Part shown: in pieces, positions 41,188 through 60,030 of the stretch
Numbering within the stretch: position 1 is the stretch's first letter
Layout of the letters: every line of letters starts with the position of its first letter
Assembly (NCBI RefSeq): GCF_007751035.1
Contig: NZ_CP036433.1
Coordinates: forward strand, 7,793,001 to 7,857,000
Origin: Lignipirellula cremea
GTDB lineage: Bacteria > Planctomycetota > Planctomycetia > Pirellulales > Pirellulaceae
Length of the DNA stretch: 64,000 bases
Direction: 5' to 3'
Notes under the pieces: generated by a model
What the model was told of the DNA's origin: nothing
The model's database searches: none
What the model saw: only the letters and a program-made list of their open reading frames with translations
Program-made: the position numbers and the translations under genes

Positions 41188-42177
41188 TTACTCGTTCCCC
41201 GCCCATAACCGGGCCAGCTTGCCGACTTCGAAAGCCTGGGTCGGGGCGTCGGTCGTGAGCTGCACCAGGAACGTTTTCCCTTTCCGGGTGCTGGAGACAA
41301 CCGTGCCAGTGATCCCTTCGCCGATTGCCTTCCGGTTGACGCCGGCGGGAGCCACGCGGATCTTCTGGCCGGGCTTGAGCGTCAGGGCGACGACGGTTGC
41401 TTCCTGGAAAAGCGTCAGGGCAAGGTCGTTCCCTTCCGCCACGTCGACATAGCCCGGCAGGCCTTCTTCGGCCATTCGCTGGGCGTGGACTTCCATCTGT
41501 TCGGCCTGGAATTTGAGCAGGCTTTCGTCGTCGAGGAAAATGTGCCAGCAGACGCGGACGCGGCCTTTGCCGACGCCGTGGGTCTTGGCCCGCAGGGCGT
41601 CGCCGACCTGGATATCCGAGAACTTCGCCGGCTGGCCGTTTTTCCAGTAGCGGGTCTCGTCGTTGGTTTCCAGGAACAGGCCCGACTCGCGGACGTAGCT
41701 TTTGTCGGCCTTGGCCTGGGTGAATTCGATGCGGCCGCGATCCGCGTCGATCGCATCGACCAGGTAGTATTCTTTGTGGCCGTTGAGCATGTTCATTTCG
41801 TCCTGGATGTAGGTCAGCCAGACCCACTCGCCCGCCTCGTTTTCATGCATACGAAAGATGGCCCGTTCGCCAATCTTGAAATCCCGCAGGTCGCCAAAGG
41901 TCGCGTGGTGCAGCATTTCGGCGTACGGCATCACCGTAAACGGAAACTCCACGTCGTCCCCTTCGTTACGGAACACGCCGGTCTGTTTCTCCAGATCTAC
42001 GCTCACCAGCTCGCCCCAGATCCGCCGCATCCGGTCAAACGGCACAATCACCTTGCCGGGCGTAATCTTCAGCGCAGGCTTCTCAGCCGGCGGCGCCGCC
42101 TGCACAGCATGCGCCGGGAACAGAGAGAACAGCATCAGGACGGCCGACAGCCAGGCGGACTTGCACGTAAGGATCAT
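41188..42177 (-). CDS. Secreted protein of unknown function
   Basis: The protein has 329 residues. The ATG at 42177 is preferred because it starts directly at a signal peptide (MILTCKSAWLSAVLMLFSLF, cleavage near AVQAA). The frame remains open to a further ATG at 42240. The mature protein alternates short beta segments resembling repeated OB/SH3-like barrels: GELVSVDLEKQTGVF, RAIFRMHENEAGEWVWLTYI and GTVVSSTRKGKTFLVQLTTD. The C-terminal part has GQKIRVAPAGVNRKAIGEGI. No enzyme motif is recognised. The style resembles the beta-rich linker of the kinase/caspase protein at 44287. It is upstream of the sulfatase on the same strand but 118 bases away. Confidence 0.75.
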   Translation of the reverse strand: MILTCKSAWLSAVLMLFSLFPAHAVQAAPPAEKPALKITPGKVIVPFDRMRRIWGELVSVDLEKQTGVFRNEGDDVEFPFTVMPYAEMLHHATFGDLRDFKIGERAIFRMHENEAGEWVWLTYIQDEMNMLNGHKEYYLVDAIDADRGRIEFTQAKADKSYVRESGLFLETNDETRYWKNGQPAKFSDIQVGDALRAKTHGVGKGRVRVCWHIFLDDESLLKFQAEQMEVHAQRMAEEGLPGYVDVAEGNDLALTLFQEATVVALTLKPGQKIRVAPAGVNRKAIGEGITGTVVSSTRKGKTFLVQLTTDAPTQAFEVGKLARLWAGNE

Positions 42178-42651
42178 GAGGATTGCTATCCAGATGGGAA
42201 GGAGCGGTAAAAAGCGGCCAGACGAGTGACAGACAGACATGCGTCACGCTGACAGGAAGCGACACCCCCGGCAAGACCGCGATCGGTCCGCCGGGTTCGC
42301 CATCCCAGTGTAACCCCTGGCATACCGTGGTCAACGTCCGCCGACGGCCGCTGGCTTTCGCTCCCACCCCATCGAGCAAGGCAAAAACCCACCACCTGAC
42401 TGCAATTGCCCCCGCGAGGTGCGGGCGGTAGGATACCGCCACGTTTCCCAGGTAGACAAAAGTCTTGTCACCAGGAAAAAACGCCGGGGGGAAACGTACC
42501 GGACTCGGCCACGAGTCCGGAAGGCGGGGCGGAAAGAAAGGGACTCGTGGCCGAGTCCACTGCCCGAATTGCTGGCTGTCGCGCAGCACTCGCAATCCGG
42601 CGTTTCAAAATCTCCCTGCGGTCGATCTGCAGGCGACAGGAAAGAGCGGCT
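42178..42651. other. Divergent intergenic region with paired inverted palindromes
   Basis: About 470 bases between a leftward secreted-protein gene and nadD. GGACTCGGCCACGAGTCC (about 42507-42524) and its exact inverse GGACTCGTGGCCGAGTCC (about 42540-42557) lie 15 bases apart. Each is itself a near-palindrome (GGACTCG...CGAGTCC), so the pair could fold as two hairpins or one long stem. No gene is supported. Confidence 0.55.
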
Positions 42652-44286: not shown

Positions 44287-47200
44287 TTATTCGCGGGGCA
44301 CGTTCAGTTCGGCGATCAGATATTTGCTGAATGCGTCCAGGTCGAGGGTGCTGAAATAGGTCAGCCGTTTCCGGTCCCGCTTGAGTCCAGCGACCCGAGT
44401 GCGGTCGGCCTCCAGCGGGGATTTCTGCAGATCGGCGATCTGCTTGTCGATGGTGGTGAACTCGCTTCGCACCCCTTCCAGGCCGGTGCGGTACAAGGCG
44501 GTCGCTTCCGGCCCGTGTTCGATGACAAACTGATCCAGCGGGGCCACGTCCTTGGTGAGCATCGGCGGTTCGGCTCCCTGCAGGGCGAACTCCCGCATTT
44601 CTCCCGCCAGCTGCCAGGCGTACCTGGCAAAGACCGCTTCCGCCCCGGTCGCCGCCGGATCCAGATGGGAGAGCCCTGACTTTAGGTCGGCGATCCCGTT
44701 TTTGTAGTCCTTTTGCATGAAGTTCTGCCAGGCCAGCGCCAGGTACGGCGCCGCCCGATCGGGATGCGAGGTCCGCACCTGCTCAAACAGTTTCTGCGCG
44801 GCGGCGGTACGATTGTGCTTCAGGTTGGCCAGTCCATAAGCAATCGACAGATCGGGCTGGTCGGGCGTTTTCTTGTGGGCGGTTTCGTACGCCTTCACCA
44901 CGGGCTCGTCCAGCGTGCGCTGCGCCAGGGAGCCAAGGACGGTCCGGACGGCCTCTTTGTACTCTTCGGAAACGCGTTCCGGGGTGGCGTTCGGCAAAAA
45001 GGCCAAAGGCGTTTGCGAATGGTCCTGGGCATCGCGAAACTCGGGCGTTTTCAGGTCCAGCAGGCGGATCAGTTCCTCGGTGGAAACGCGATAGTCCTGG
45101 TCCTCGTCGGCCGCCCCGTTGAAGGCCTCTTCCAGGACCGTCCCAAAGGCGCCGCGCCCGCCGGCCCGCAGCTCGATTCCTTTTTCTTTGTCGCGACTGC
45201 TGGCGACAATCACCACCGACGTCGAAGCGGCCGCCAGCGCGTTCGGCTTGAGCGTTTCCACCAGCTCAGCCGAGGAAGGCTGGGCATTGGCGAAGCGACT
45301 GGCTCCATGGTGCGAAGCATCAAGCAGCAGCACCTTTTCCGCCGCCGGGGTGTTCTCGATCTGGGTCACCAGCCAGGACAGCGGCACGCCGGTTTCGGCG
45401 CGCTTTTCGGCGTCAAAATCCTTCATGGCCAGGACCGCGTCCCCCTGGTCGCTGAGATAGCCGTGCCCCACAAAGTAAACGATCAGCTGGCTGCCGGGCG
45501 GGACGGATTTCAAAAAATTGGGCAACGTGCGTTCCAGCGCCAGGCGGGAAGGATTCAGCTCAAAAAAGCACTGCTCTTGCGCGGTCCGGTACTGCTGCAG
45601 CAACGCCCGATGCACGGCCTCCGCGTCGGCGGCTGCATAATCGAGCCGGGCCTGGCGAATGTCACTGTAGTCCTGCACCCCCAGCACCACCGCCCAGGTG
45701 CGACGATCGGGCGTCGGCGAGATCGATAGCGTGCGGGCGACCGGCGACTTCAGATCGGGCGAAAGGTGCGTCGCCTGGACCGTATCGCCTTCGCGGAGAA
45801 AGTCAAAGCTGACCGGTTCGCCGCTGGCCAGAAAGTCAATCTCGCAATCTTCCGCCAGCGTAAAGCGGATCGGCGCCGGGTAGTTATCCAGCCGGATCTC
45901 CAGCGAGCGGCCCGTCCGATCCAGGCTGGCGACGGTTCCCCGCACCGTGAATTCCCGCCGGGCGGCAATCGCCGTAATCTGGGCGTCGTGCTGCACCGTG
46001 ACGGCGTCGCCCGCTTCCAGGTGGTTCAGCGTCAGCTCGCGGCCGTCGAGAACGGTCGAGCCATTGAGAGTGATCTCGCAGCGCTGGGCCAGCGGCCAGG
46101 TTCTTTCGGGCGAGGACTCTTCCCGGCCGAGGGTAGCGGTCAGCTCGCGGCGATCGGTATTGATTTTTACGACCGCCCCTTTGAACGACATCGTTCGTAG
46201 CGCGTCCACCCCCTTCGCTTCCCGGCGACTCTCGCCCGGCCCATGCGATACAGTCGCGCGATCGCCGGGCTGCAGCGCCCGCAAACGGTACGGCTCGCCA
46301 TGGACTTCCGCCTCGCCGTTGAGGGTGACGCGGGCCGTGACGGGCACATAAATCGAAAGCGGCTGGGCGGGGTTCTCGCTGTCGGTCAGCTGGAGCGTGC
46401 CGTCGCGGACGTCGATGGCGCTGATCACACCCTGGTCCTGCTGGGCCACGGCCCGGCGGGCGACGATATTCTGAATGGCGGAGCCGTCTTCGCTGGTGAA
46501 CTTTTTCACCTCAACCTGGTCGTCAAGCTGCAGATCGCTGAACGACGCTTTGGAGTCGTTCAGGAACACCTGGTCAGAGCCCGGGTCAAAGTCGATGGCC
46601 AGCAGATCTTTGGCGCCATCGATGCGAATCCAGAGCCGGTTCTGATCGGGGGCGATATCGGTCAGCACGCCCGACCGGGGTCCGGCATTGGCTACCGGCG
46701 GCGGTTCGACCGGCTTGCTTCCCAGCGGCAGGAACAGCACGCCCAGGGAAAGCAGCAGGCTCATCACAAAGGCGCCAATCACCAGCAGGCGGCGTTTTTT
46801 CGCCTGTTTTTCGGCATCGACCTCGGCCTGTTGTTCTTCGGCGGTGGGCGCCGCTTCGCCGCCGCGGGCGCGCAGCTCCAGCATGGGCTTTTCGGCGTTG
46901 CGATACCGGCGGGCCGGATCTTTCTCAGTCATTTTTTCCACGACCGCCGCCAGATCGGGCGGCACGCCCTGCAGCACGCGGCCGATCTCGGGCAGGCGCT
47001 GGTCGAGCGTCGCCTGCCACATCATCCAGGCAATTTGTTCATCGCGTCCGTACATTTTGAGACCGGGAAACAGGTCGTCAAAATGCTTGCCGCACATCAG
47101 TTCATAGGCGGAGAAACCGAGCGAGTAGATATCGCTCCAGGGGCCGACCGCCCCCAGCTCTGGACTGCAGACCTCGGGGGCCATGTACTTGGTGGTGCCT

Positions 47201-47676
47201 TTGACGACGCTGCCTTCGTTATCGGCCAGGCGGCGGGCGATGCCGAAGTCGCCCAGTTTGACGCGATGAGTTTTGTCGAGCAGCAGGTTGGTCGGTTTCA
47301 CATCGCCATGGACGATCCCGTTCTGATGCAAAAAGTGCAGCGCGCTCAGCGTATAGACCAGCGTCAGCCGCAGCGATTCCAGGTCGATCGGTTCGCCCGC
47401 CAGCTGCTGCTTCAGGTTGCCTCGCATCAATTCCAGCACCAGCCAGCCCCGGTCACGGACCACATCGTAGATGGTCATAATGTAGGGGTGTTCCAGCGAG
47501 GCCAGGAGCTGAGCCTCTTGCCAGTAACGATCCAGCTGGGCCGGGTCGTTCAGGTACTGCTGATGAATCTGCTTCACCGCCACCTCGCGGCCCAGCTCGT
47601 TATCACGGGCGCGGTACACCGTGGCGAAGTCGCCAGCGGCGATCTGTTCCAGCAGTTCGTATCTCGGGGTCGGCAC
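44287..47676 (-). CDS. Membrane Ser/Thr kinase fused to a caspase-like domain lacking the catalytic Cys
   Basis: The protein has 1,129 residues. The kinase domain (1-270) has Lys35 in VAVK, HGD at 123-125 in place of HRD, DFG at 143-145 and MAPEV. One membrane helix follows (297-318). Residues 330-650 form several beta-rich repeats about IAPDQNRLWIRI, GTLQLTDSEN and TVASLDRTGRSLEIR. A peptidase C14-like domain (658-895) begins RTWAVVLGVQDY. Its catalytic His is present (VGHGY, His738), but the expected DACHSG reads DASHHG, with Ser788 in place of Cys. The rest is helical and TPR-like. The kinase should be cytoplasmic and the caspase fold outside. It is last gene of the Tad-locus strand. Confidence 0.92.
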   Translation of the reverse strand: MPTPRYELLEQIAAGDFATVYRARDNELGREVAVKQIHQQYLNDPAQLDRYWQEAQLLASLEHPYIMTIYDVVRDRGWLVLELMRGNLKQQLAGEPIDLESLRLTLVYTLSALHFLHQNGIVHGDVKPTNLLLDKTHRVKLGDFGIARRLADNEGSVVKGTTKYMAPEVCSPELGAVGPWSDIYSLGFSAYELMCGKHFDDLFPGLKMYGRDEQIAWMMWQATLDQRLPEIGRVLQGVPPDLAAVVEKMTEKDPARRYRNAEKPMLELRARGGEAAPTAEEQQAEVDAEKQAKKRRLLVIGAFVMSLLLSLGVLFLPLGSKPVEPPPVANAGPRSGVLTDIAPDQNRLWIRIDGAKDLLAIDFDPGSDQVFLNDSKASFSDLQLDDQVEVKKFTSEDGSAIQNIVARRAVAQQDQGVISAIDVRDGTLQLTDSENPAQPLSIYVPVTARVTLNGEAEVHGEPYRLRALQPGDRATVSHGPGESRREAKGVDALRTMSFKGAVVKINTDRRELTATLGREESSPERTWPLAQRCEITLNGSTVLDGRELTLNHLEAGDAVTVQHDAQITAIAARREFTVRGTVASLDRTGRSLEIRLDNYPAPIRFTLAEDCEIDFLASGEPVSFDFLREGDTVQATHLSPDLKSPVARTLSISPTPDRRTWAVVLGVQDYSDIRQARLDYAAADAEAVHRALLQQYRTAQEQCFFELNPSRLALERTLPNFLKSVPPGSQLIVYFVGHGYLSDQGDAVLAMKDFDAEKRAETGVPLSWLVTQIENTPAAEKVLLLDASHHGASRFANAQPSSAELVETLKPNALAAASTSVVIVASSRDKEKGIELRAGGRGAFGTVLEEAFNGAADEDQDYRVSTEELIRLLDLKTPEFRDAQDHSQTPLAFLPNATPERVSEEYKEAVRTVLGSLAQRTLDEPVVKAYETAHKKTPDQPDLSIAYGLANLKHNRTAAAQKLFEQVRTSHPDRAAPYLALAWQNFMQKDYKNGIADLKSGLSHLDPAATGAEAVFARYAWQLAGEMREFALQGAEPPMLTKDVAPLDQFVIEHGPEATALYRTGLEGVRSEFTTIDKQIADLQKSPLEADRTRVAGLKRDRKRLTYFSTLDLDAFSKYLIAELNVPRE

Positions 47677-47767: not shown

Positions 47768-48970
47768 CTAACGACTGAGCAACGTCGAAAGCAGTTTCTG
47801 CAGTCCTTCATCGTTAGGGTGGGTGCTTGCAGACCTTAGCCCGGTCATGCCGCGGGTTTCGCTCTGGTTTTCCGAGTGCAGCATGTCCAGCACCTGGTGG
47901 TAATAACGACGTTCCTGCGCGTCGTTCCCCAGGCTGTGGGCCTGGATCGCCAGTCGCAGCCGTTTTTGATATTCGGCCAGCTCGCCGCCGGGCAACGGCT
48001 GGATATAGTACTTGACGATCAGATCGCGCGACTTCTGTTTGCTGCCGCTTTCCGACAGTTCAAAGTCATCCGGCATGAACAGCATTCCGATCGACGCCGC
48101 AAAACTCAACACCAGCACGCAGATCACCAGCAGCGGGCTCTTGGGCGACGGAGCGGCCGGTTCTTCGTCGTTGCTGCTGACTTTCTGCAGCTGCAGTTCG
48201 GGCAACTTGCCGTCGGCGCCCAGGGCGACGTTCGTGGCGGCCGCATCGTTGATGATCACCTTCGGCCGCTGCACCACCTTGTGCTGCAGCGGGTTCCCTT
48301 TGAAGGCCGGCTGGCCGGAATGCTTGCCAGGCAAAGGGCCGGTTGAGGGCCCGGCGGGCGTCTCCAGCAGCGGTTTGGTCAGCGCTTCGTCCCCCCGGAA
48401 CACGGCCGCCTGGCCTGCCGGCGGAGCCCCCTGAAAACGAGCCTGCGCGGCGCCGCCGGGGGCGGCGTTTGCAGGAGCTGCAGGCTGCCCGGTCGGCGAC
48501 CCCATCGACGGTCCGCCTGCCGGCCCATGCATGGGAAGTCCGCTAACGGGCGGAGCCAGATGCGGCGGCACAGGTCCCGCAGGATTCGCCCGCGGCGGGT
48601 TCTTGGCTGTCGGCGGAGGCAGGGACGCCGGCGAAGGCGAAGCAGCGGGCGGGCCCGGTTGTGCGACCGGCGGGACGGGAACGGCCGGCGGCATCCCGGC
48701 AGGCGGTTCGGCCGACGGGGCAGGGGGGAAGCCCGGCGGCGACAGGGCCGTTTCCGCTGTGGAGACTTCCCCTTTAGCCGCGCCGCTCCGCGAGGGCGGC
48801 AGCATCCAGTCGCTGGGATTGGCGGGGCTCAACGTTTTCCGGGTATCCGCGTGGTGCTCTTCAATGGGGAATTTCTTCTGACAGCGCGGACAAGCCACGT
48901 GCTGACCGGCCAGCTCGTCGGGAGCGGTCAATTCCTTCCTGCAGTGAGGGCAAAGCACTTTGAGCGGCAT
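47768..48970 (-). CDS. Zinc-ribbon membrane protein with proline-rich linker
   Basis: The protein has 400 residues. The N-terminus is an MJ0042-type zinc ribbon: LCPHCRKELTAPDELAGQHV then CPRCQKKFPI. About 200 residues of Pro/Ala/Gly-rich linker follow. One membrane helix is at about residues 280-300 (LLVICVLVLSFAASIGMLFM), and a short helical domain ends the protein. The same layout (cytoplasmic ribbon, flexible linker, helix) is common in planctomycetes and has no assigned activity. Its stop is 91 bases before the kinase/caspase start on the same strand. It may be a partner of that protein or of the Tad machinery. Confidence 0.82.
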   Translation of the reverse strand: MPLKVLCPHCRKELTAPDELAGQHVACPRCQKKFPIEEHHADTRKTLSPANPSDWMLPPSRSGAAKGEVSTAETALSPPGFPPAPSAEPPAGMPPAVPVPPVAQPGPPAASPSPASLPPPTAKNPPRANPAGPVPPHLAPPVSGLPMHGPAGGPSMGSPTGQPAAPANAAPGGAAQARFQGAPPAGQAAVFRGDEALTKPLLETPAGPSTGPLPGKHSGQPAFKGNPLQHKVVQRPKVIINDAAATNVALGADGKLPELQLQKVSSNDEEPAAPSPKSPLLVICVLVLSFAASIGMLFMPDDFELSESGSKQKSRDLIVKYYIQPLPGGELAEYQKRLRLAIQAHSLGNDAQERRYYHQVLDMLHSENQSETRGMTGLRSASTHPNDEGLQKLLSTLLSR

Positions 48971-49040: not shown

Positions 49041-49940
49041 TTACATGATTTTGACGAAGTTCAGTATAAACGGTCCGAGGATGATTAAAACAGTCGACGC
49101 CATCACCAGGATGCCGGGCAACAGCATGTTGACGGCCGCTTCGCCCGCCAGCGTTTCGGCCCGCTGCGATCGCTTCACCCGCAGCACGTCGGCCTGCGTC
49201 CGAAAAATAGCAGACAACGGAGTCCCCAGTTCTTCCCCCTGCAGAATGGCGCCAATGATCGCGCTGACTTCGTCGTCGTTCAATCGGCGCCGCATGTTGT
49301 CGAACGCTTCCGAACGGGCCTTCCCCATATTCATATCGCTCAGCACCCGGCCGAACTCCTGGGCGATGGCGTGCCCTTCAAACTCCTTCACCGACTGCTG
49401 CAGTCCCTGCAGAAAGCTGTTGCCGGACTCCATCAACAGGGTGAGCAGGTCCAGCAGGAACGGCATCCGGCGTTTAATCATCACCAGACGCCGGTGGGCC
49501 GTACGCGTCAAACGGAATCGCAAAAACCAGACGGTCAGCCCCGACATGAGCACGCCCGTCACCAGGCCGGCGGGCCCCATCATCACAAAGCCCATGTATA
49601 AATAGCCCGGCAGCAGCAGCAGGGCGATCAGCTCCATCCGGCCCAGGTACTCTTCCGGCAACCAGTACCGGGTGATGCCGGCGGCCTGGATCTCGCGGCT
49701 GATTTCCGGCAACTGGCCGCGAAAAGCCGAGCGGTTCAGCTTGGCGAACGTTTGAATCACCGGCTGGAACAGCCGAAACAGATAGTCGGTCCGGCGCAAC
49801 CCGTTGATGCGGCTGACATCGAACCGCCATTCATCGGCCTGAGCCAGGTCGTCGGTCGACAGCGCCTGCCAGATCCACCAGGCCAGCATTGACGTCGCAC
49901 CGCCCAGGACCAGGCTGGGGACTAGCGAAAAAGGATCCAT
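49041..49940 (-). CDS. tadC: Tad pilus inner-membrane platform protein TadC
   Basis: The protein has 299 residues. An N-terminal helix (LVLGGATSMLAWWIWQAL) and a central hydrophobic hairpin (IALLLLPGYLYMGFVMMGPA, VLMSGLTVWFLRF) precede the type II secretion F domain. The F domain reads MPFLLDLLTLLMESGNSFLQ, GRVLSDMNMGKARSEAFDNM and IIGAILQGEELGTPLSAIFR. The final helix is MLLPGILVMASTVLIILGPF. It forms the motor-coupled platform for pilus extrusion with TadB. The gene follows tadB by 25 bases and precedes the zinc-ribbon gene by 70 bases. Confidence 0.93.
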   Translation of the reverse strand: MDPFSLVPSLVLGGATSMLAWWIWQALSTDDLAQADEWRFDVSRINGLRRTDYLFRLFQPVIQTFAKLNRSAFRGQLPEISREIQAAGITRYWLPEEYLGRMELIALLLLPGYLYMGFVMMGPAGLVTGVLMSGLTVWFLRFRLTRTAHRRLVMIKRRMPFLLDLLTLLMESGNSFLQGLQQSVKEFEGHAIAQEFGRVLSDMNMGKARSEAFDNMRRRLNDDEVSAIIGAILQGEELGTPLSAIFRTQADVLRVKRSQRAETLAGEAAVNMLLPGILVMASTVLIILGPFILNFVKIM

Positions 49941-49965: not shown

Positions 49966-50811
49966 CTAAATATCCGCGTCGAGGATCGCCACCGCCCAGA
50001 AGTACGCCGCCACGTTCAGCAGCACGGCCGCACACAAGATCGCTTGTCCGGCAAAGTCGGTGAACAGCGCCTCGACCACATCGGGACTCATCACATAGTA
50101 GGCCGCCAGGATCGCCGGCGGGGCGAGCCCCATGTACACGGCCGACTTGCGGGCCTGGGCCGTTTCCGACCGCACCTTCCGTTCCAGACGCTGCAGTTCA
50201 ATCACCGAGGCTGAGATCCGCTCGACCGTTTCATTCAGCCGGCCGCCGCTTTCCCGACTGGCCAGCAACGCGGCCGAGAACAGAATAAAGTTCTCGCTCC
50301 GCAGCCGCTCTTTGGCTTCGGTCAGCGTCCGTTCCAAAGGCTTTCCCATTTTGTACTCGCCAACCATCTGGGCGAATTCCTGCTGGATGGGTTTAGGGCA
50401 ATCCGTCGCCAGCAGCTCCAGCGCCTGGGCCAGCGACAACCCGGCCCGCACTGCGCTGCTGAACATCACCATGGCGTCGGCCAGCTGCTCTTCGACCTTC
50501 AGCCGCCTGGCGGCCGCCATCCGCCGCACCACAAACCAGGGCCCCGCACACATAAAAATGGCGGCGACCACCCCAAACAGCGCGGCGTCAAACCCCAGCC
50601 ACAAAACAATAAAGGTCATCGCCACGATGGCCAGCCAGATCTGAATCCACCATCGCAGCTTGCTCGATACAATCCGCAGGCTCTTCAGACGCTCGGCCAG
50701 ATCGCGTTCCACGTAGTCGATAAATTGATGATACGCCCCCTGGCCAGCCCAGCCGGCTCCGGCCGCGCACAGTCCGCCCAGGAGAGAAATCACAACAGCT
50801 TCAAACGGCAT
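49966..50811 (-). CDS. tadB: Tad pilus inner-membrane platform protein TadB
   Basis: The protein has 281 residues. ATG 50811 follows a GGAGGG box; an upstream in-frame ATG is rejected. Membrane helices are seen near the N-terminus, at residues 57-90 (IWLAIVAMTFIVLWLGF; LFGVVAAIFMCAGPWFVV) and at the C-terminus. The F domain is ADAMVMFSSAVRAGLSLAQA, EYKMGKPLERTLTEAKERL and FSAALLASRESGGRLNETVE. It is the partner of TadC in the platform driven by the CpaF ATPase, which is immediately upstream (102 bases). Confidence 0.93.
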   Translation of the reverse strand: MPFEAVVISLLGGLCAAGAGWAGQGAYHQFIDYVERDLAERLKSLRIVSSKLRWWIQIWLAIVAMTFIVLWLGFDAALFGVVAAIFMCAGPWFVVRRMAAARRLKVEEQLADAMVMFSSAVRAGLSLAQALELLATDCPKPIQQEFAQMVGEYKMGKPLERTLTEAKERLRSENFILFSAALLASRESGGRLNETVERISASVIELQRLERKVRSETAQARKSAVYMGLAPPAILAAYYVMSPDVVEALFTDFAGQAILCAAVLLNVAAYFWAVAILDADI

Positions 50812-50913
50812 GGACCCTCCTGTTAAATCGTGCAAAATCGGTGAATGGGGGGAAACGCCTTAACCGCGCCGGGGCAGGGCCACAGGGAGCGAAAGCAGCG
50901 ACGTGGCGAACCG

Positions 50914-52797
50914 TTATTTGTCGTACAAAAAGTCCAGATCCAGCAGCTTCTGTTCGACCAGCTCGTCCATGAAGGTCGGCAGCGTGCCGGTCGGTCGCAG
51001 GTTCTTTCCGTCCCGCCGATTGAAGATATCGGTGATCCCCACTTTCGACGTTTCGGGATGGATGCCGCTGATTTCCGAGATCTGGCTGATCACCCGTTTC
51101 CCGCTCGGCAAGCGATCGATATGCACAATCACATGGATGGCCGAACCGATCTGGCGATGGATGGAGCTGATCGGCAGGTCGGCCCCCATCAGCATCAGCA
51201 GCTCCAGCCGTTCGATCACTTCCTCAGAGCTGTTGGCGTGGATGGTCGTCATCGAACCGTCGTGGCCCGTGTTCATCGCCTGCACCATGTCGAGCGCTTC
51301 CGACCCGCGGCATTCGCCCACCACGATCCGGTCAGGCCGCATGCGTAAAGCATTCTTCACCAGATCGCGGATGGAATAGGCGCCTTGCCCTTCGACGTTT
51401 GCCGGCTTGGTTTCCAGCGAGACCACATGATCCTGGTGCAGCCGCAGCTCGGCCGTATCTTCGATGGTGACGATCCGTTCCTTGTACGGGATAAAGCTGC
51501 TCAGCACGTTCAGCATGGTCGTTTTGCCCGAACCGGTGCCGCCGCTGATCAGAATGCTGCGGTGGTTCACCACGCACGCCCGCAAAAAAGTGGCGGCCGC
51601 CCGAGTGACCGAGCCGTACTCAATCAGCGCGTCCATCTGCAGGCGCTGGATCGGAAATTTGCGGACCGTTAAACAGGGGCCAAACAGGGCCAGCGGCGGA
51701 ATGATGGCGTTCACACGGGACCCGTCGGGCAGTCTGGCGTCGACCAGCGGCTGGCTTTTATCAATACGACGGCCAACCTGCGCCACGATCCGCTCAATGA
51801 TCGATTCCGTGACTTTATCGGAGATGAACCGGCGCCCCGACTTTTCAATCACGCCGTCGCGCTCGACGAAGATCTGGTCGCTGCGGACGACCATGATTTC
51901 GCTAATGGTCGGCGCCCTCAGCAGATCCTGCAGCGGCCCGAACCCAAAGACGATATCCTTCAGGTCCTTTTTCAGCATTCGCAGAATCAGATACCGCCGC
52001 AGCTCTTTGTGAATGTGCGGTCGCACCTGGCCGAAGATACTGTGGAACCGCTCCTCGACGCGATGGATCTTGCTGCTCACATCGGGCAGTTTTTCCAGCT
52101 CCAGCTTGTCGCGTAAAAAGGTCAGCAGGGCGTGCAGCTCTTGCTCTCGCTCCGGCACCAGGGTGGCCGGCACGTCGAACTCGTTGGTGGTCAGGGCGGC
52201 CAGGTCGAAGATTTCTTCTTCCCCCGTTTCCATGATCAGCTGGTTGATGGAGTGGTCGCGCAGGCCCAGGCCGCAGATCTCTTCCAGCAGGGCTTCGTTC
52301 TGCGGGCCAAACAGGTTCAGTTCCCGACAGACGTCTTCAATGTTGTTTTCCAGCAGCAGAATGCTGGCTTCGTTCTGGCCATGGGCGTTCTCCATTTCGT
52401 ACAGGTCCAGCCGCTCCAGCAGCTGCTTATGGATTTTCAGCTCCAGGTCGGCGACCATGTCGCGCAGATGGGCTTCCAGCTCGAGCCGGCTGATAGCGGC
52501 CGCTTTGTGCGTTTCAAAGCTGATCGTGTAGGGCCACAGCCGAATTTTGATGTTCGTCGCGAACTTGACTCGCTCGCCGCCCAGCACTTCAGTTTCGCCC
52601 ACCAGGCAACTGTTGACGCCCAGGTTTTCCAGCTCAAGCTCATCGCCCAGCGTGCGCACGACCGCATGCCGGCGGGAAATCAAAGGCGATTTCAGCACCA
52701 CCTGGTTGGTTGGATCCCGACCGAAAAAAATCTCGGGCCCGGCCGCTTCGACCATGTTGCGGCGGCTTTCGTTGAGTTTATTGAACCAGATCTTCAT
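50914..52797 (-). CDS. cpaF: FHA-domain/CpaF (TadA) secretion ATPase fusion
   Basis: The protein has 627 residues, longer than the ~450-480 usual for CpaF. Residues 20-100 are a forkhead-associated domain: FGRDPTNQVVLKSPLISRRH (GR 26-27, SRRH 41-44) with Asn62 in LGVNSCLV. FHA domains bind phospho-threonine. A helical linker leads to the type II/IV secretion ATPase: Walker A GGTGSGKTT (419-427), VTIEDTAELRL (Asp box), NALRMRPDRIVVGECRGSEA (Walker B) and GHDGSMTTIHANS (His box). It powers Flp pilus assembly through TadB/TadC. The fusion suggests control by a kinase, possibly the one at 44287. Confidence 0.95.
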   Translation of the reverse strand: MKIWFNKLNESRRNMVEAAGPEIFFGRDPTNQVVLKSPLISRRHAVVRTLGDELELENLGVNSCLVGETEVLGGERVKFATNIKIRLWPYTISFETHKAAAISRLELEAHLRDMVADLELKIHKQLLERLDLYEMENAHGQNEASILLLENNIEDVCRELNLFGPQNEALLEEICGLGLRDHSINQLIMETGEEEIFDLAALTTNEFDVPATLVPEREQELHALLTFLRDKLELEKLPDVSSKIHRVEERFHSIFGQVRPHIHKELRRYLILRMLKKDLKDIVFGFGPLQDLLRAPTISEIMVVRSDQIFVERDGVIEKSGRRFISDKVTESIIERIVAQVGRRIDKSQPLVDARLPDGSRVNAIIPPLALFGPCLTVRKFPIQRLQMDALIEYGSVTRAAATFLRACVVNHRSILISGGTGSGKTTMLNVLSSFIPYKERIVTIEDTAELRLHQDHVVSLETKPANVEGQGAYSIRDLVKNALRMRPDRIVVGECRGSEALDMVQAMNTGHDGSMTTIHANSSEEVIERLELLMLMGADLPISSIHRQIGSAIHVIVHIDRLPSGKRVISQISEISGIHPETSKVGITDIFNRRDGKNLRPTGTLPTFMDELVEQKLLDLDFLYDK

Positions 52798-52845: not shown

Positions 52846-53589
52846 CTACTTTTTCTTTTCGTTGAGAATCAAACCGATATCGCGGTTGTTCCCCTGGCTC
52901 TTCAGTTCCAGCAAACGCATCGCCTGGCGTTCCAGCTTGTCGCCTTCTTTAACCACCACGATGCCGATGTTCCCTTCCTGCGCGCTCCGCGACCGGCGGC
53001 CGGATTCGGCGCTGCCCAGGCGGCCGCCCAGCGATTTCACCTCGAACGGACCGACAAACTCCGGCTCATCGTCGCGCAACCGGACGCCTGGCGCGGCGAC
53101 GCCAGGCTCCCCGCCGGGGGTCGTTGGCCCGGGCGTCTGCTTCAGGTTGACCTGCGGCGGGAATACGAACGTCACTTTGTCGCCCGGGTCGATCAGTTCC
53201 GGCACAAAGGCCTGGCTGGTGACCATCACCCAGATAATGCTCTCATCGGACAGAAACTTCAGCTCCGGCGGCGGCGTACGATAGTCCTTGCGAAACACCA
53301 GATCGCCGCCCTGGTAAGGGCGACTGGCGGTGATATCGCGGACCGTTTCCAGATCCTGGTACAGATAGACATATGTCTCCAGGTCGCCCGCATGGGCCCG
53401 GGGCACCCGGACTTCGGCAAAATCGGTCGCTTTAAGCTTCTCCCCTTCCTCGACGACGACGCCGTCTTTGATCCCCAGGAACGAAACGCTTTCGACCTCT
53501 TTAGTTTTATTGAACAGGTAGACATAGTTCAGCGCGACGCCCAGCAGGCCCAGCAGGCCGGCGACGACAAGTCCTTGAATCCCTCTCAT
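52846..53589 (-). CDS. cpaB: Flp pilus assembly protein CpaB/RcpC-like
   Basis: The protein has 247 residues from ATG 53589 (GGGAG upstream). Upstream residues in the same frame are not part of a helix and are excluded. The N-terminal membrane helix is GLVVAGLLGLLGVALNYVYL, followed by an SAF-like domain start (KDGVVVEEGEKLKATDFAEV) and VTSQAFVPELIDPGDKVTFV, the typical CpaB block for the periplasmic collar. A Gly/Pro linker and an acidic/basic tail follow. It sits 48 bases before the CpaF gene. The family assignment rests on architecture and position. Confidence 0.82.
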   Translation of the reverse strand: MRGIQGLVVAGLLGLLGVALNYVYLFNKTKEVESVSFLGIKDGVVVEEGEKLKATDFAEVRVPRAHAGDLETYVYLYQDLETVRDITASRPYQGGDLVFRKDYRTPPPELKFLSDESIIWVMVTSQAFVPELIDPGDKVTFVFPPQVNLKQTPGPTTPGGEPGVAAPGVRLRDDEPEFVGPFEVKSLGGRLGSAESGRRSRSAQEGNIGIVVVKEGDKLERQAMRLLELKSQGNNRDIGLILNEKKK

Positions 53590-53746
53590 CTGGACGACTC
53601 CCAAACGCGATCTGTTTCGATTGTTGGCTTCCAAGCTGCAGGTTGTTTTTACAGGGCGGCAAGGAGAAAAACTGCTGTCCGTCCCGCCATCATAAACCGC
53701 GGCGGCCATTGCCTGTAGCATTGCAGGCGGAACTTGCGACAATTCC

Positions 53747-54763: not shown

Positions 54764-55831
54764 CTATTTGGTCGGCAGCGGAATACCGCTGTCCGCTTCA
54801 TACTGAACGGCCAGACGGCGGAGCTCGGACTCGATTTCCGACAGACGCGAACGGTACGCCTCCAGCGGTGCGACCTTTGCTTTCAGCTCAGCGATCTCCG
54901 CTTCCGCCGCGGCAATCTGGGCCGAAATGGTCGGCGTGGGCGGCTGCATTTTCAAGAGGTCGATTAGCGCCTCCAGTTCCGCGATCCGTGCGTTGTACAT
55001 GGCGAGAAAAAAGTTGGTCATGGTGCGCGGCAAGCGGCTGATCTCTCCCAGCTCAATATCGCCCCGGCGATTACGGCCGTCGATCTTGGGGACGACCTGC
55101 TGCTGGTAAATCTCCTCGCGATCCAGCTGGCAGAGCGCGAGATAGACCTGGCCCATCATCGCCATGTACGGCTGCAGCGTGCGGGGATGAAAGTCGTGCG
55201 AACCGACATAACGCTGGACGTCTTCATCGTTATCCAGCACCTGCAGGTGACGGAAATGGGGGACCGCCATGATAGCGTTGACCGCCTCGCTGAAGGCAGC
55301 CGGCAGATCCTGCGAAGTCTGCGGGAACTCATACAGGATCGTGGTGCGGCGGGTCATCGTCGGCATGTTCATCTCGGCGTTACGGAAGGTAACGCCCAGC
55401 ACTTCATGCTCGATCGAACCGCTTTCAAAACTGCCCAGACGCGGCATCATCGGGTACCGGCGCACAATCGACGCCTTGCCGCGGCCGCCGCCCTGGGTCG
55501 GGTCCAGCACCGGCTTGATCCCAAAGCCAGGCAAGGGGCCGCGGACAACCGGGTGCTGCAGCTGCGGCAAATCCACCGTGACCCAGGCATCCGTCGCTTC
55601 CACCGATGCGGTCGCCGGAGCCGGCCAGATATGCCCCGGAGCAACCGGCTCCGTGTTGCCAGTCCGCGGCCAGCGACTGCGATGCACTTCGTCCCGGGCG
55701 ACAATCTCTCCCCGCAAGCGCAGCCGCGCCATGGTGTTGAAGTTGACCATCAACGCCGCCACAAATAGCAGCACGGGCAACCAGATCACCAGTTCCAGGG
55801 GAGCGAGTCCGCGGCGTGGAGAAGTCGTCAT
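54764..55831 (-). CDS. TadE-like minor pseudopilin with C-terminal coiled coil
   Basis: The protein has 355 residues. It begins with a short basic region and the TadE-type segment RGLAPLELVIWLPVLLFVAA (residues 7-26), where a Glu (E13) follows the processing region, as in prepilin-like proteins. The central domain is unassigned (RRTTILYEFPQTSQDLPAAF, HFRHLQVLDNDEDVQRYVGS). The C-terminal ~90 residues are coiled coil (ISAQIAAAEAEIAELKAKVA, RSRLSEIESELRRLAVQYEA). It is probably a membrane-anchored minor subunit or assembly factor. It sits 69 bases from the TadG-like gene on the same strand. Confidence 0.8.
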   Translation of the reverse strand: MTTSPRRGLAPLELVIWLPVLLFVAALMVNFNTMARLRLRGEIVARDEVHRSRWPRTGNTEPVAPGHIWPAPATASVEATDAWVTVDLPQLQHPVVRGPLPGFGIKPVLDPTQGGGRGKASIVRRYPMMPRLGSFESGSIEHEVLGVTFRNAEMNMPTMTRRTTILYEFPQTSQDLPAAFSEAVNAIMAVPHFRHLQVLDNDEDVQRYVGSHDFHPRTLQPYMAMMGQVYLALCQLDREEIYQQQVVPKIDGRNRRGDIELGEISRLPRTMTNFFLAMYNARIAELEALIDLLKMQPPTPTISAQIAAAEAEIAELKAKVAPLEAYRSRLSEIESELRRLAVQYEADSGIPLPTK

Positions 55832-55900: not shown

Positions 55901-57421
55901 CTAGTGATGACTGAGCCAGTCCAGATCGTTGGCTTCCAGATCGCGGAAATCGGGCGGAGTAAAATCGCCCAGGCTGGGATGCGTATAGGGCTGGCTGCTC
56001 AAAATGGCCGGAATGGAGGCCGATGTGGCCGGCGCCAGCTGCACCGACCAGTTCTGGTTCCGCATGCTGAACTCTTCCGGAAACCAGGAGCCGGGCTGAC
56101 GAGTGATATACCAGTCCTGCTGCTCCACCTCGGGGTCTTCTGGCGGCGGATCGACATCGGCAGGCAGATCCACATATTGCCCCGGCACGCCGCCGGTCAG
56201 CCCGGCCGTAACGGCGTTTTCTCCCGGCTCAACCTTCAGCAGCCGCCGCCGCGGCACGGTGACCATCACCTGGGCGTACGCCTGGGTATCGCCCGCGGCC
56301 GGACTGCGAAACACGCGGGGCATCAGCTCGGTAAATTTGCTGCGGTAGACCACGCCGACAAACATAAAGTCGCGATCGTACATCTGGTTGATGGCCAGCT
56401 GCGACAGCTCGGTGTCGCCATACTCCCAGGGACGGCGGAGCATGAACATGAGATTGGTGTCGGGATATTCTTCCAGCAGCTGCTCCAGATGCCCGGCGGT
56501 CAAGATTCGCCAGAAGGCGGCGTACTGCGACATTTTCCCCAGCCCCGTCCGCCATCCGCCGCCCAGCAACAGGTTATCGAACGGCTGCATGGAGGCCGCA
56601 TCCCACTGATGCAGATAGGTATGTGCGAACTGCCGACGAAAGGTCCGGGCCTGGTCGATTTTCCCATGCTCGCGGTAATCCCACACCGGTAACGTGCGGA
56701 GTTCTGACTCCCTGTCGCCGCCCATCGGATCGACATTCGTCCGCCACATCAGGGCGTGCAGATCGACCGCCCGGGGCCAGGCCCTGCCGTGCCGCTGGGC
56801 CGCTTCTTCGGCCGCCATTTGCGCCTGCTGGGGCGACGCCTGCAGCACGGCCCGCTGGAATTCGGGAATCTGTTCTTCGGCCAGGATCTGTTCAAAGACC
56901 GGCAGCATCAGTTCAGAACTGGCTTGCGACCAGGCGCCAAACGTGGCGACCAGCTGCATTTCGCCCGGAGCCTTTTCATTGATCGCTTCGCCCAGATCGG
57001 CGAATTTCTGGAACTCGGAACCGGCGAAGGCCGGGCCAATCCGCGTCCAGTTGGCCAGAATTTCCGGCGTCAGCGTAATGGCCGTCTGGTCCCGTGCCTC
57101 GCGCAGGTAGGCGGTCAGAGCGAACGTATCCCAGAGCAGATGATTCGAAAAGGCAATCGTGTTCAGGCTACGGGCAATCGACACGCCGCCCGAATACGCC
57201 GCGGCGTCGGCCGCGTTTTGCATGCGGACCTTCTCGTTGAACTGCAGGTCGCTGTTCATCACCATCCCCAGCAGAATGGTCAGCGTGATCAGGCCAAACA
57301 TCGAAGTCAGGCTGATCGAGCCCTTCTCATCCCCATGCACGCGACCGATCAGGCCCGCGCCACGAGAGAAGCAGAAGCCCAGACATCGCTGGAGATTACG
57401 GGGATGAAAGTGATTTCGCAT
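55901..57421 (-). CDS. TadG-like pilus locus protein
   Basis: The protein has 506 residues with the ATG at 57421; an earlier in-frame start is possible. After a basic N-terminal stretch comes DEKGSISLTSMFGLITLTIL (TadG-like membrane entry) and NEKVRMQNAADAAAYSGGVS, the latter close to the RxQxAADAAALAG block of TadG/Flp-assembly proteins. The rest is a large extracytoplasmic domain with no recognised motif. The C-terminus is Asp-rich. It is encoded between two TadE-like genes in the pilus locus, consistent with a minor subunit or export-gate role. Confidence 0.85.
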   Translation of the reverse strand: MRNHFHPRNLQRCLGFCFSRGAGLIGRVHGDEKGSISLTSMFGLITLTILLGMVMNSDLQFNEKVRMQNAADAAAYSGGVSIARSLNTIAFSNHLLWDTFALTAYLREARDQTAITLTPEILANWTRIGPAFAGSEFQKFADLGEAINEKAPGEMQLVATFGAWSQASSELMLPVFEQILAEEQIPEFQRAVLQASPQQAQMAAEEAAQRHGRAWPRAVDLHALMWRTNVDPMGGDRESELRTLPVWDYREHGKIDQARTFRRQFAHTYLHQWDAASMQPFDNLLLGGGWRTGLGKMSQYAAFWRILTAGHLEQLLEEYPDTNLMFMLRRPWEYGDTELSQLAINQMYDRDFMFVGVVYRSKFTELMPRVFRSPAAGDTQAYAQVMVTVPRRRLLKVEPGENAVTAGLTGGVPGQYVDLPADVDPPPEDPEVEQQDWYITRQPGSWFPEEFSMRNQNWSVQLAPATSASIPAILSSQPYTHPSLGDFTPPDFRDLEANDLDWLSHH

Positions 57422-57539
57422 TGCGCGAATTCCGGTGGCGTAAATCCCGCCCCGATCGACGCCCTGGGACCAACAGCCCCAGGGCAGGCGACAAAGAACG
57501 GGTCGAATGGAAAATAAAGATCGATAGCGCACAGGCGAC

Positions 57540-58685
57540 TTAAGGGAAAAACTCCCGTTCGTTCATCGAGGGCAATCGTGGGTAACGAGAAAAATCCTGA
57601 AACGGCAGGTCGCCGGACAGGTCCTGATAATACGGATAGGCCGGCTTCTCTCCCTCATTATTCAATCGGACCGAAGCCTGCAGCGGGTACGTGTACACGC
57701 CATGGTAACCTTGAATCCGCTGGGCGAACGAACTGCTTGAGGGATTTCCGCCGGTAGACTGGTTGCCGCCCGTTGACTGGCTTCCACCGCCAAACTCTTC
57801 TTCGCTCAGCGACTGCTGCGTGCCGCCCTGGGGATCATTGCTCTGGGAATCGTTGCCCGAAGACGAGCCATTCCCGCTGCGGCTGGCCCGATCGACGCGG
57901 CTTTGTCCCAGCAGGATACGAGCCGGCCCCGGCAACAGCGCCAGGTGATGCTCGACCGTGACGTGCAACTGGTCCTGCCAGCCGATTTCGTTCGGCTGGA
58001 ACTCGGCCAGGTAGGGAGAAACCTCCCAGTACGCCAGCGGCGGCTCTTCGGCCTTGTGCCATACATCAATCCGCACGCCTGTGCGATCCAGGGCGTACGC
58101 CAGTTTGTTCTGCAGGCGAGGCTCCACCCGGGTGTTGGTCCGTTGCGAAGGCGCCATGGCGAAGTAGGCCTTCTGCAGGGACGGCAGCCCTTCCATCCCC
58201 GGATGGTCGAGCCCGATTCCGGTAAACCGCGAAGGAGAAGCGGCCATGCAGGCCATGGCGGCGGCAAAATGAATGCGTCGGTATTTGGGGCCGGTCGGGT
58301 TGATGCGGTAGACCGAGAACGTGCCGTCGTCGCCGGTGTCGGCGGAGATCTGGGTGTACGTGCCGATCTGATTCTCCAGCTCGCCCTCTTCGGCCAGGCG
58401 GGCCGGAATCCACACGATTGCGCTGCGGGCGGCGGCAAAGGCGCCATACTCCACTTCGATCTGGCCGATCATCATCTGGCTGAGCTGCACGATGAACATC
58501 ATCACCATGACAAACACGGGGAACGTCAGCACAAAGCTCAGGCTCTGTACGCCGCCTTGCTGGTCCCGATGCAGCTGGAACAGATGGGCCCATCGCACCC
58601 GGGCGCCAGCCAGCATGGCGAGCCCCTTCAGGGCCAGCAGCGAAATCGCCAGGCCCGCCAGATAAGGTAACAAAGATAGGCTCAT
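57540..58685 (-). CDS. TadE-like pilus locus protein
   Basis: The protein has 381 residues from the ATG at 58685 (first alternative at 58709). Two N-terminal hydrophobic segments are LSLLPYLAGLAISLLALKGL and, after HRDQQGGVQ, SLSFVLTFPVFVMVMMFIVQ. The latter resembles TadE prepilin-like helices with the residue pattern QxxxxxxExxxGAFAAARSA. A Gly/Ser/Gln-rich low-complexity region with repeated STGGNQ occupies about residues 285-325. The neighbours on both sides are Tad genes, so it probably is a minor pilin or assembly factor. Confidence 0.82.
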   Translation of the reverse strand: MSLSLLPYLAGLAISLLALKGLAMLAGARVRWAHLFQLHRDQQGGVQSLSFVLTFPVFVMVMMFIVQLSQMMIGQIEVEYGAFAAARSAIVWIPARLAEEGELENQIGTYTQISADTGDDGTFSVYRINPTGPKYRRIHFAAAMACMAASPSRFTGIGLDHPGMEGLPSLQKAYFAMAPSQRTNTRVEPRLQNKLAYALDRTGVRIDVWHKAEEPPLAYWEVSPYLAEFQPNEIGWQDQLHVTVEHHLALLPGPARILLGQSRVDRASRSGNGSSSGNDSQSNDPQGGTQQSLSEEEFGGGSQSTGGNQSTGGNPSSSSFAQRIQGYHGVYTYPLQASVRLNNEGEKPAYPYYQDLSGDLPFQDFSRYPRLPSMNEREFFP

Positions 58686-58733
58686 ACCGGCACTTTCCCC
58701 TGATACCACAACGGGACGTCGTCGCCGTTGTGA

Positions 58734-59330
58734 CTACATCGTTTGTCCCCACTCCACTCCCGTCACCAACCGCACCACGACTACCAGCACGCCGGCCAGA
58801 GCACTGGGTCCCAAAAACAGCCGGGTTTTCAACGGAGCCCGGTCCTCGTCGCGAATCGCAGGGCGGCTGCGGAACCGGAGAATGTAAAGAGGATAGGCGA
58901 AAAACCTCCTCAACAACTCTCCCGCGCCGACTTGCCAGATCAGCGAAATCACCCCGGCCACAGCGGCGATCAGGAAGGTCCAGATCAACGCCTCCATACC
59001 GGCGTACGCTCCTAAAAACGCTCCCATCATGGCAACCAGCTTGATGTCGCCCCCGCCGATTCCCCCGGCGAAAACCAGATAGCAGACGACCATAATTCCG
59101 CCGCACAGCCCCAGACCGGCAGCGCTTTGGAGGAGGGACAAAGCGCCGACCCACCACTCGTGCGGCGCGACGCCCTGGCGAACTTCCATCCCCAGCAGCG
59201 TCGCCAGGGTGCTGAGTCCCAACGCAACCAGGATGCCGCTGTAGGTTGTTTTGTTGTAGATCTTGCCGGCGCGCAGGTCAGTACAGGCCGCGGCCGCGAC
59301 AAATCCCAGCAACAAGGCCAAGTTCAGCAT
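58734..59330 (-). CDS. cpaA: Prepilin peptidase, A24 family (TadV/CpaA)
   Basis: The protein has 198 residues and is hydrophobic throughout. Both catalytic aspartates are seen: the first in AACTDLRAGKIYN (about residue 18) and the second in the GGGDIKL motif (about residue 95), the GxGD signature of A24 aspartyl peptidases. The N-terminal methyltransferase domain of PilD-type enzymes is absent, as usual in Tad systems. It cleaves the leaders of Flp pilins and TadE/TadG-like pseudopilins in the inner membrane. It is immediately downstream of the flp pilin gene (22 bases). Confidence 0.94.
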   Translation of the reverse strand: MLNLALLLGFVAAAACTDLRAGKIYNKTTYSGILVALGLSTLATLLGMEVRQGVAPHEWWVGALSLLQSAAGLGLCGGIMVVCYLVFAGGIGGGDIKLVAMMGAFLGAYAGMEALIWTFLIAAVAGVISLIWQVGAGELLRRFFAYPLYILRFRSRPAIRDEDRAPLKTRLFLGPSALAGVLVVVVRLVTGVEWGQTM

Positions 59331-59352: not shown

Positions 59353-59562
59353 TCAGGAAACGTCCGCTGCGCCGCCTTCCAGCTCGTTCATGCCGTCGTT
59401 GAAAAAGTCGCGGATGCGGGGCCACCCGATCTTGATCACAAAGATCAAAATGGGCAATGCAATCGCCGCCACGATCAGCACCGTTTCAATGCTGACCGCT
59501 CCGTCTTCATCTTCGTGAATGGTGCGGAGCAAGCCCAGCAGAGTGGGTTGGTTGGTCTTCAT
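59353..59562 (-). CDS. flp: Flp-type major pilin
   Basis: The protein has 69 residues, the normal Flp size. A short acidic leader (HEDEDG) leads to AVSIETVLIVAAIALPILIF. The Gly-Ala processing site is followed by the Glu at +5 and the hydrophobic stalk typical of Flp/type IVb pilins. The charged/aromatic segment KIGWPRIRDFFNDGMNELEG forms the tail. It is cleaved by the adjacent prepilin peptidase and polymerised by the CpaF/TadB/TadC machine. Confidence 0.92.
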   Translation of the reverse strand: MKTNQPTLLGLLRTIHEDEDGAVSIETVLIVAAIALPILIFVIKIGWPRIRDFFNDGMNELEGGAADVS

Positions 59563-59721: not shown

Positions 59722-59886
59722 CTACTGGAAGGGCCACGACACCAGGATGCTTGTCATTTGGTACACCGTATTCATCATTCGCGGAGCCAGATAATACACG
59801 AAAGCAATCAACGGCAGCACAACGCCCAGCAGCAGAACATAGTCCAGCGAGGCGGCTCCACGACGAGATGAGCGGCGAATGTGCAA
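59722..59886 (-). CDS. Second Flp-like pilin
   Basis: About 54 residues from a TTG start at 59886 that follows AGAGGG closely; the frame is open to an ATG at 60030 without an obvious ribosome site. The sequence RRGAASLDYVLLLGVVLPLI has the pilin-like processing region (G/A), an acidic residue at the position corresponding to +5 or so (LDYV) and a hydrophobic stalk, followed by YYLAPRMMNTVYQMTSILVS. It resembles a minor or alternative Flp pilin. The start codon is uncertain. Confidence 0.7.
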   Translation of the reverse strand: MHIRRSSRRGAASLDYVLLLGVVLPLIAFVYYLAPRMMNTVYQMTSILVSWPFQ

Positions 59887-60030
59887 AGCCCTCTCCGATT
59901 CCTGGTGATGAATCCGGAAATGGTTGAAGCGTAAACTCTCGAGAATCAAACGTCTCCAGACCGATGCCCCCGGTCCGCGGGTTTCCCCCAAGTGGGTAAG
60001 GGTGGATGCACCCGGTCCCGCCTCTCCCAT

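Follow-up and report, generated by a model that had tools for sequence, protein, structure and literature searches.

The window analysed here, a stretch of 64,000 nucleotides from the Lignipirellula cremea genome, contains a Tad pilus locus in which the genes follow each other on the same strand in the order two Flp-like pilins, TadV, TadE, Tad/TadG, TadE-like, a 320-aa protein and an RcpC/CpaB-like protein, then FHA-TadA, TadB, TadC, a zinc-ribbon/TM protein (ZnR) and, as the last gene, a Tad-linked receptor-like Ser/Thr kinase with a pseudo-caspase ectodomain, for which we use the label KC. This agrees with the first-pass annotation, which had put the kinase at the end of a Tad locus whose ATPase carries an FHA domain. 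The features of the locus, with the evidence for each, are as follows:

59722-60030, minus strand: Flp-like pilin ORF, second of two (sequence inspection)
59353-59562, minus strand: Flp-like pilin ORF, first of two (sequence inspection)
58734-59330, minus strand: TadV, prepilin peptidase, Peptidase_A24 (Pfam)
57540-58709, minus strand: TadE, pseudopilin (Pfam)
55901-57532, minus strand: Tad/TadG, pseudopilin (Pfam)
54764-55831, minus strand: TadE-like, pseudopilin (position and sequence)
52846..53742, minus strand: RcpC/CpaB-like protein (position and sequence character, synteny; no Pfam match)
50914..52797, minus strand: FHA-TadA/CpaF motor ATPase (Pfam T2SSE 1.7e-61 and FHA 3.9e-8, alignment)
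49966..50835, minus strand: TadB-like platform protein (Pfam T2SSF 2.2e-17)
49041..49940, minus strand: TadC-like platform protein (Pfam T2SSF 2.1e-13, synteny)
47768..48970, minus strand: ZnR, 400 aa, with zinc ribbon, Pro/Ala-rich linker and TM, between TadC and KC
44287..47676, minus strand: KC (ORF, Pfam, >70 homologues)
46903..47661, minus strand: cytoplasmic Hanks-type kinase domain of KC, residues 6-258 (Pfam, K/D/D conservation, kinase tree)
46729..46785, minus strand: single transmembrane helix, residues ~298-316, N side basic (hydropathy, charge tally)
45718..46680, minus strand: four tandem OB-like beta domains, residues ~333-653, predicted extracytoplasmic (AlphaFold2, CusF matches)
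44983..45714, minus strand: caspase-fold (C14-like) domain with decayed dyad (Pfam C14, AlphaFold2, Foldseek, VIA-align, dyad tally)
45463-45465, minus strand: H738 of the caspase-fold domain
45313-45315, minus strand: S788 of the caspase-fold domain
45073..45108, minus strand: EF-hand-like loop D857-x-D859-x-D861-...-E868 within the caspase-fold domain (residue conservation)
44290..44979, minus strand: C-terminal TPR-like helical region, residues 900-1129 (AlphaFold2 helices, weak TPR_19)

The motor ATPase combines an N-terminal FHA domain, in which R27, S41, R42, H44 and N62 (GRD...SRRH...N) are present, with a TadA/VirB11-type ATPase, the combination that defines class III of the CpaF/TadA proteins; it matches the TadA-family model at 1e-96, which is below the cut-off of that model. 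ZnR, a candidate adaptor or target of phosphorylation, gave no Pfam match above cut-off; it is present in 62 aligned loci, with a conserved C-terminal part and, ahead of the TM, a DGxLPxLxL motif. The window yielded no secretin gene, eight secretin matches being located elsewhere in the genome, and no cognate PP2C phosphatase was present among the window proteins scanned with Pfam, which comprised part of the ORFs of the window. A second, weak FHA-TadA match in the genome (4.5e-9) is located at C1:7393166-7393786. Downstream of KC, a 350-aa ORF (41188-42240) lacking a match in the Pfam scan contains phrases like 'FSDIQVGDALRAK', which resemble the OB-like repeats of the KC ectodomain.

The KC gene is intact and has a GTG startcodon, and its 1129-aa product contains K35, H123-G124-D125, D143-F-G (143-145), APE166-168 and the clade motif AWM(M/R)WH in the kinase domain, and, in the caspase-fold domain, H738 as part of VGHGY, and both D786 and S788 (codon TCG) within DASHHG; the residues picked out in the first-pass annotation (K35, HGD123-125, DFG, H738 and S788) are thus all where they had been placed. 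Full-length homologues with 33-42% identity are found throughout the order of the host, and a shorter form, which stops near residue 895 and has no C-terminal helical region, occurs in family f22 of the class. The homologue sets obtained from the different collections partly overlap, and dyad counts were made non-redundant at 95% identity.

As the kinase begins at residue 5 there is no N-terminal signal on KC, and hydropathy gives one TM in the full-length homologues (residues ~298-316), with a mean net charge over 88 rows of +3.2 on the N side and +0.1 on the C side. Because of the missing signal, the single TM and the basic N side, we infer that the kinase faces the cytoplasm, where the FHA-TadA motor also is, and that the OB-like domains, the caspase fold and the helical tail lie outside. 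Since the caspase fold dominates Foldseek searches with the whole ectodomain, the beta region was modelled separately, and AlphaFold2 predicted OB-like domains (pLDDT 91) that singly match CusF (Foldseek TMt 0.67-0.75 over ~86 residues); matches over longer stretches had a high rmsd and are not meaningful, and the number of domains (about four) was read from the repeat pattern.

The kinase domain (Pkinase 1.7e-45) has the VAIK Lys, catalytic Asp, DFG and APE of Hanks-type Ser/Thr kinases, and K35/D125/D143 are intact in 84 out of 88 rows, the exceptions being three K to R changes and one frame artefact in a broken contig. In L284, L285 and L137 the VAIK Lys is Arg (VAIR) with HGD and DFG retained, and kinase activity of these three is doubtful. 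While 26 of the 27 readable other kinases of the genome have HRD, HGD is invariant or nearly so among the KC kinases. An Arg to Gly change before the catalytic Asp is that shown by non-RD kinases, and suggests a lower dependence on activation-loop phosphorylation rather than inactivity. HGD as the mark of a dead kinase was ruled out, because Lys, catalytic Asp and DFG are conserved and HG is a signature of this kinase clade. The best PDB sequence match of KC was PknB of M. tuberculosis (5e-33), and the PknB/Stk1 PASTA kinases share with KC an N-terminal Hanks kinase, one TM and an extracytoplasmic sensor, whereas KC has HGD where HRD is expected and a different ectodomain, in which the Pfam scan found no PASTA domain; the NCBIfam PASTA-kinase model scored 191 bits against a cut-off of 450.

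Gene order was compared in the 27 loci for which 4 kb or more of upstream sequence was available; 22 of them have the order FHA-TadA, TadB, TadC, ZnR and KC, and the five exceptions (G030, G031, G040, G058 and G085) have FHA-TadA elsewhere in the genome. Locus L115 contains TadB, TadC and the kinase, with no FHA-TadA between the RcpC-like and TadB genes and no zinc-ribbon protein. In the 396 genomes of the order of the host, FHA-TadA was found in 44 and KC in 49, and KC was present in 43 of the 44 FHA-TadA genomes (Fisher 8e-50, not corrected for phylogeny), with G120, G058 and G327 scored as kinase-positive from weak or partial matches. The sole FHA-TadA genome without the kinase is G115, in which the Tad contig ends just downstream, and the six KC genomes showing no FHA-TadA are all fragmented MAGs. 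In the rest of the class, all 18 FHA-TadA genomes have one kinase homologue each, versus 1/80 genomes without detectable FHA-TadA, and a full FHA-TadA was present in 8/10 further genomes reached via named contigs. The kinase and FHA-TadA genes lie megabases apart in the one-contig genomes G433, G466 and G520; the two are therefore co-inherited without linkage, which argues for a shared function. In comparative genomics, the link between KC and the pilus is strong.

An FHA-TadA that is more distantly related (25-33% across FHA domain and linker) was found in 12 genomes of the same order, in nine of which a kinase gene is located nearby. These nine kinases form one clade with KC and one further kinase (SH-aLRT 99), apart from 46 of the 47 other planctomycete kinases; for the single background kinase within the Tad-linked clade (L015 in G059), the 35 kb of surrounding sequence retrieved contain no Tad genes. 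Among the sister-clade pseudokinases (L222-L230), the eight that were scanned have FGE-sulfatase-like, Ig/TPR, WD40 or FHA domains in place of the caspase fold, and catalytic losses in the sister clade are varied (HGK, HGA, HGT, HGN, VAIF and lost DFG). Where the kinase is K/D/D, the phosphothreonine residues of the FHA domain (R-S-H-N pattern) are intact in 36/37 loci. The full R-S-N set is absent from all nine FHA domains of the pseudokinase loci and from 1/37 intact-kinase loci. We read this pattern as writer (kinase) and reader (FHA) having decayed together in the sister clade, with the caveats that neither the co-occurrences nor the cases of joint decay are independent of phylogeny, that the FHA residues may have been lost just once, in an ancestor, and that kinase and FHA may have decayed in a single event between the two clades. 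A wider generalisation, on which our opinion is evenly balanced, is that planctomycetes have a group of Tad-pilus receptor kinases in which pseudo-caspase, sulfatase-modifying-factor-like, Ig, WD40 and FHA domains are exchanged as sensors or outputs, and a kinase-FHA phospho-switch, which decayed jointly into a phosphorylation-free sister version.

The explanation which we hold to be probable, with its function inferred, is that a dedicated receptor-like Hanks kinase and a phospho-switch on the FHA motor control the Tad pilus. The cytoplasmic N-terminal kinase would be joined by one membrane helix to the extracytoplasmic OB-like domains, caspase fold and helical tail, which would sense the state of the pilus or a signal from the envelope or surface, or would scaffold the machine. 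Once activated, the kinase would phosphorylate Thr residues, either its own or those of a partner such as the neighbouring ZnR. Through its FHA domain the TadA/CpaF motor would bind the phosphothreonine, which could recruit or switch the motor and so control pilus extension or retraction. A phosphorylation circuit acting on the pilus had been called plausible in the first-pass annotation, and synteny, unlinked co-occurrence and joint kinase/FHA decay now lend it good genetic support, at the level of sequence comparison. It is unlikely that the kinase of the Tad locus instead acts as a scaffold or as a regulator of expression or cell cycle, with FHA-TadA binding the phosphoproteins of other kinases. 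The host genome has 72 Pkinase matches, the sister clade stays beside Tad genes despite lacking catalytic residues, and the product of a neighbouring gene is not necessarily the ligand of an FHA domain, all of which fit this alternative; however, KC shows almost no variation at K/D/D, it is inherited together with FHA-TadA also where the two genes are unlinked, and the FHA residues are decayed where this kinase is dead. Planctomycetes have a very large number of kinases, of which few have been assigned to a pathway.

A switch from receptor kinase to FHA motor, resembling PpkA-Fha1 of the H1-T6SS, is the most likely mechanism. In the PpkA-PppA-Fha1 pathway of P. aeruginosa (PMC12133291) a membrane Ser/Thr kinase senses envelope events, as is proposed for KC, and an FHA protein is the cytoplasmic effector of the secretion machine, whereas in the Tad locus the motor ATPase itself carries the FHA domain, the ectodomain consists of OB domains and a pseudo-caspase, the scanned neighbours of KC include no PP2C, and the circuit is a predicted one. 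An FHA domain with phosphothreonine-binding residues is linked to a kinase (36/37 loci), as in the T6SS-type threonine phosphorylation pathway; because the locus encodes Tad pilus parts and not T6SS machinery, KC would work like this pathway, not belong to it. Fusion of FHA to a Tad motor is also seen in the recognised class III of CpaF/TadA ATPases (PMC12019362) and in KilF of the Tad-like Kil system of Myxococcus, for which a contact-triggered phosphorylation cascade was suggested by analogy with the T6SS (PMC8460266); in contrast to these, a kinase partner is identified here by linkage and co-inheritance, and in another phylum. The word 'phosphorylation' is absent from the main text of the CpaF paper (PMC12019362) and 'kinase' from that of the Kil paper (PMC8460266), and beyond the suggested Kil cascade we found nothing in the literature tying a kinase to FHA-Tad. 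While FHA-bearing Tad motors and their suspected control by phosphorylation were already known, the co-inherited KC offers a concrete kinase partner, and a testable prediction follows from the way in which kinase and FHA residues have decayed together.

The caspase-fold domain is recognised by Pfam (Peptidase_C14, 8.8e-7, above cut-off, residues 660-857), and its AlphaFold2 model is confident (mean pLDDT 87.6), with Foldseek matching it to the MALT1 caspase domain (TMt 0.72) and VIA-align to procaspase-6 (Z 21.1, 201 residues at 2.4 A). By its fold the domain thus belongs to C14, but the His-Cys dyad is incomplete, with Ser in place of Cys in the KC of the window. Among 72 non-redundant homologues, column 738 contains H48 R12 Q7 T2 I1 N1 S1 and column 788 S25 C16 T10 G9 V4 A3 plus five singles; these columns rank 51st and 157th in conservation among 226, and the tree requires at least 12 changes between H and not H at 738, and at least 14 between C and not C at 788. 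Both His and Cys are present in 13/72, and because Cys is found in only 16 and His in only 48 of the homologues, the alignment indicates that the domain is a recurrently dead caspase fold. The EF-hand-like loop is by comparison well kept over the 72 homologues (D857 in 72, D/N859 in 65, D/N861 in 71 and E868 in 71), and the fold is possibly stabilised by Ca2+ through this loop. The caspase part is missing from L130, L132, L289, L292, G040 and G058, where the kinase is kept along with all or most beta domains, L130 and L132 being Tad-linked; since the domain is missing in some members, we consider it useful but replaceable, with catalysis not under selection.

The suggestion in the first-pass annotation that the domain is a binding module fits the repeated loss of the dyad with retention of fold and EF-hand-like loop, and the absence of the domain from some Tad-linked members, and we consider it probable, jointly with the explanation of the locus as a whole, that the caspase fold of the KC in the window is a binding or structural module and not a protease. 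Its other suggestion, that the domain uses serine, is not supported by the alignment, as Ser occurs in just 25/72 and can be replaced by G, T, V or A, and Ser788 as a conserved nucleophile was ruled out on the same tally. It is quite improbable that the domain is a working protease (through Ser788, or Cys in relatives) with the kinase gating envelope proteolysis: the predicted fold is intact, 13/72 members have H+C and another 15 H+S, but the nucleophile column varies between S, C, T, G, V, A and others, His is lost in a third of the members, and some Tad-linked members lack the entire domain. Given the members with both His and Cys, proteolysis may take place in some lineages. Close relatives with Cys in an otherwise identical setting had been named as a sign of sequence error. 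Cys is retained in 16/72, but S, T, G, V or A recur in the same column, and a sequencing error at Ser788 was therefore ruled out. A reading in which Ser arose in isolation, through a recent mutation or an error, and in which KC is a plain fusion of kinase and protease that has nothing to do with the pilus, has a negligible probability: DSCH or DTCH is retained in some relatives, but members of the family repeatedly show the change of Cys, and there is strong linkage to the pilus.

Caspase homologues without an intact His-Cys dyad have been described before (PMC6426788, PMC3501461), and planctomycetes were reported to have just 64% intact dyads, with Ser as the commonest replacement of Cys (PMC3501461, PMC6426788). 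KC shares the dyad-less caspase fold with these pseudo-orthocaspases and prokaryotic metacaspases, but is not of the YS type, and differs in its fusion to a kinase that looks active and in its link with a Tad pilus. Ser for Cys is by itself ordinary; the finding is the partnership of kinase and FHA motor together with exchangeable, mostly non-catalytic outer domains, in which the caspase fold has been reused in a receptor ectodomain, mostly without catalysis.

A second kinase-caspase fusion is encoded in the same genome (L205/L110, 764 aa, C1:5341306-5343054, minus strand), with an HRD kinase, the catalytic His changed to Met (VLTGMGSS), Cys present (VDTCQTAG) and the same EF-hand-like loop as KC, which is unmatched in the other five C14 ORFs of the genome. 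Of these six other C14 ORFs (L106-L111) just two (L106 and L109) have both His and Cys, and by this count pseudo-caspases are common in the host genome.
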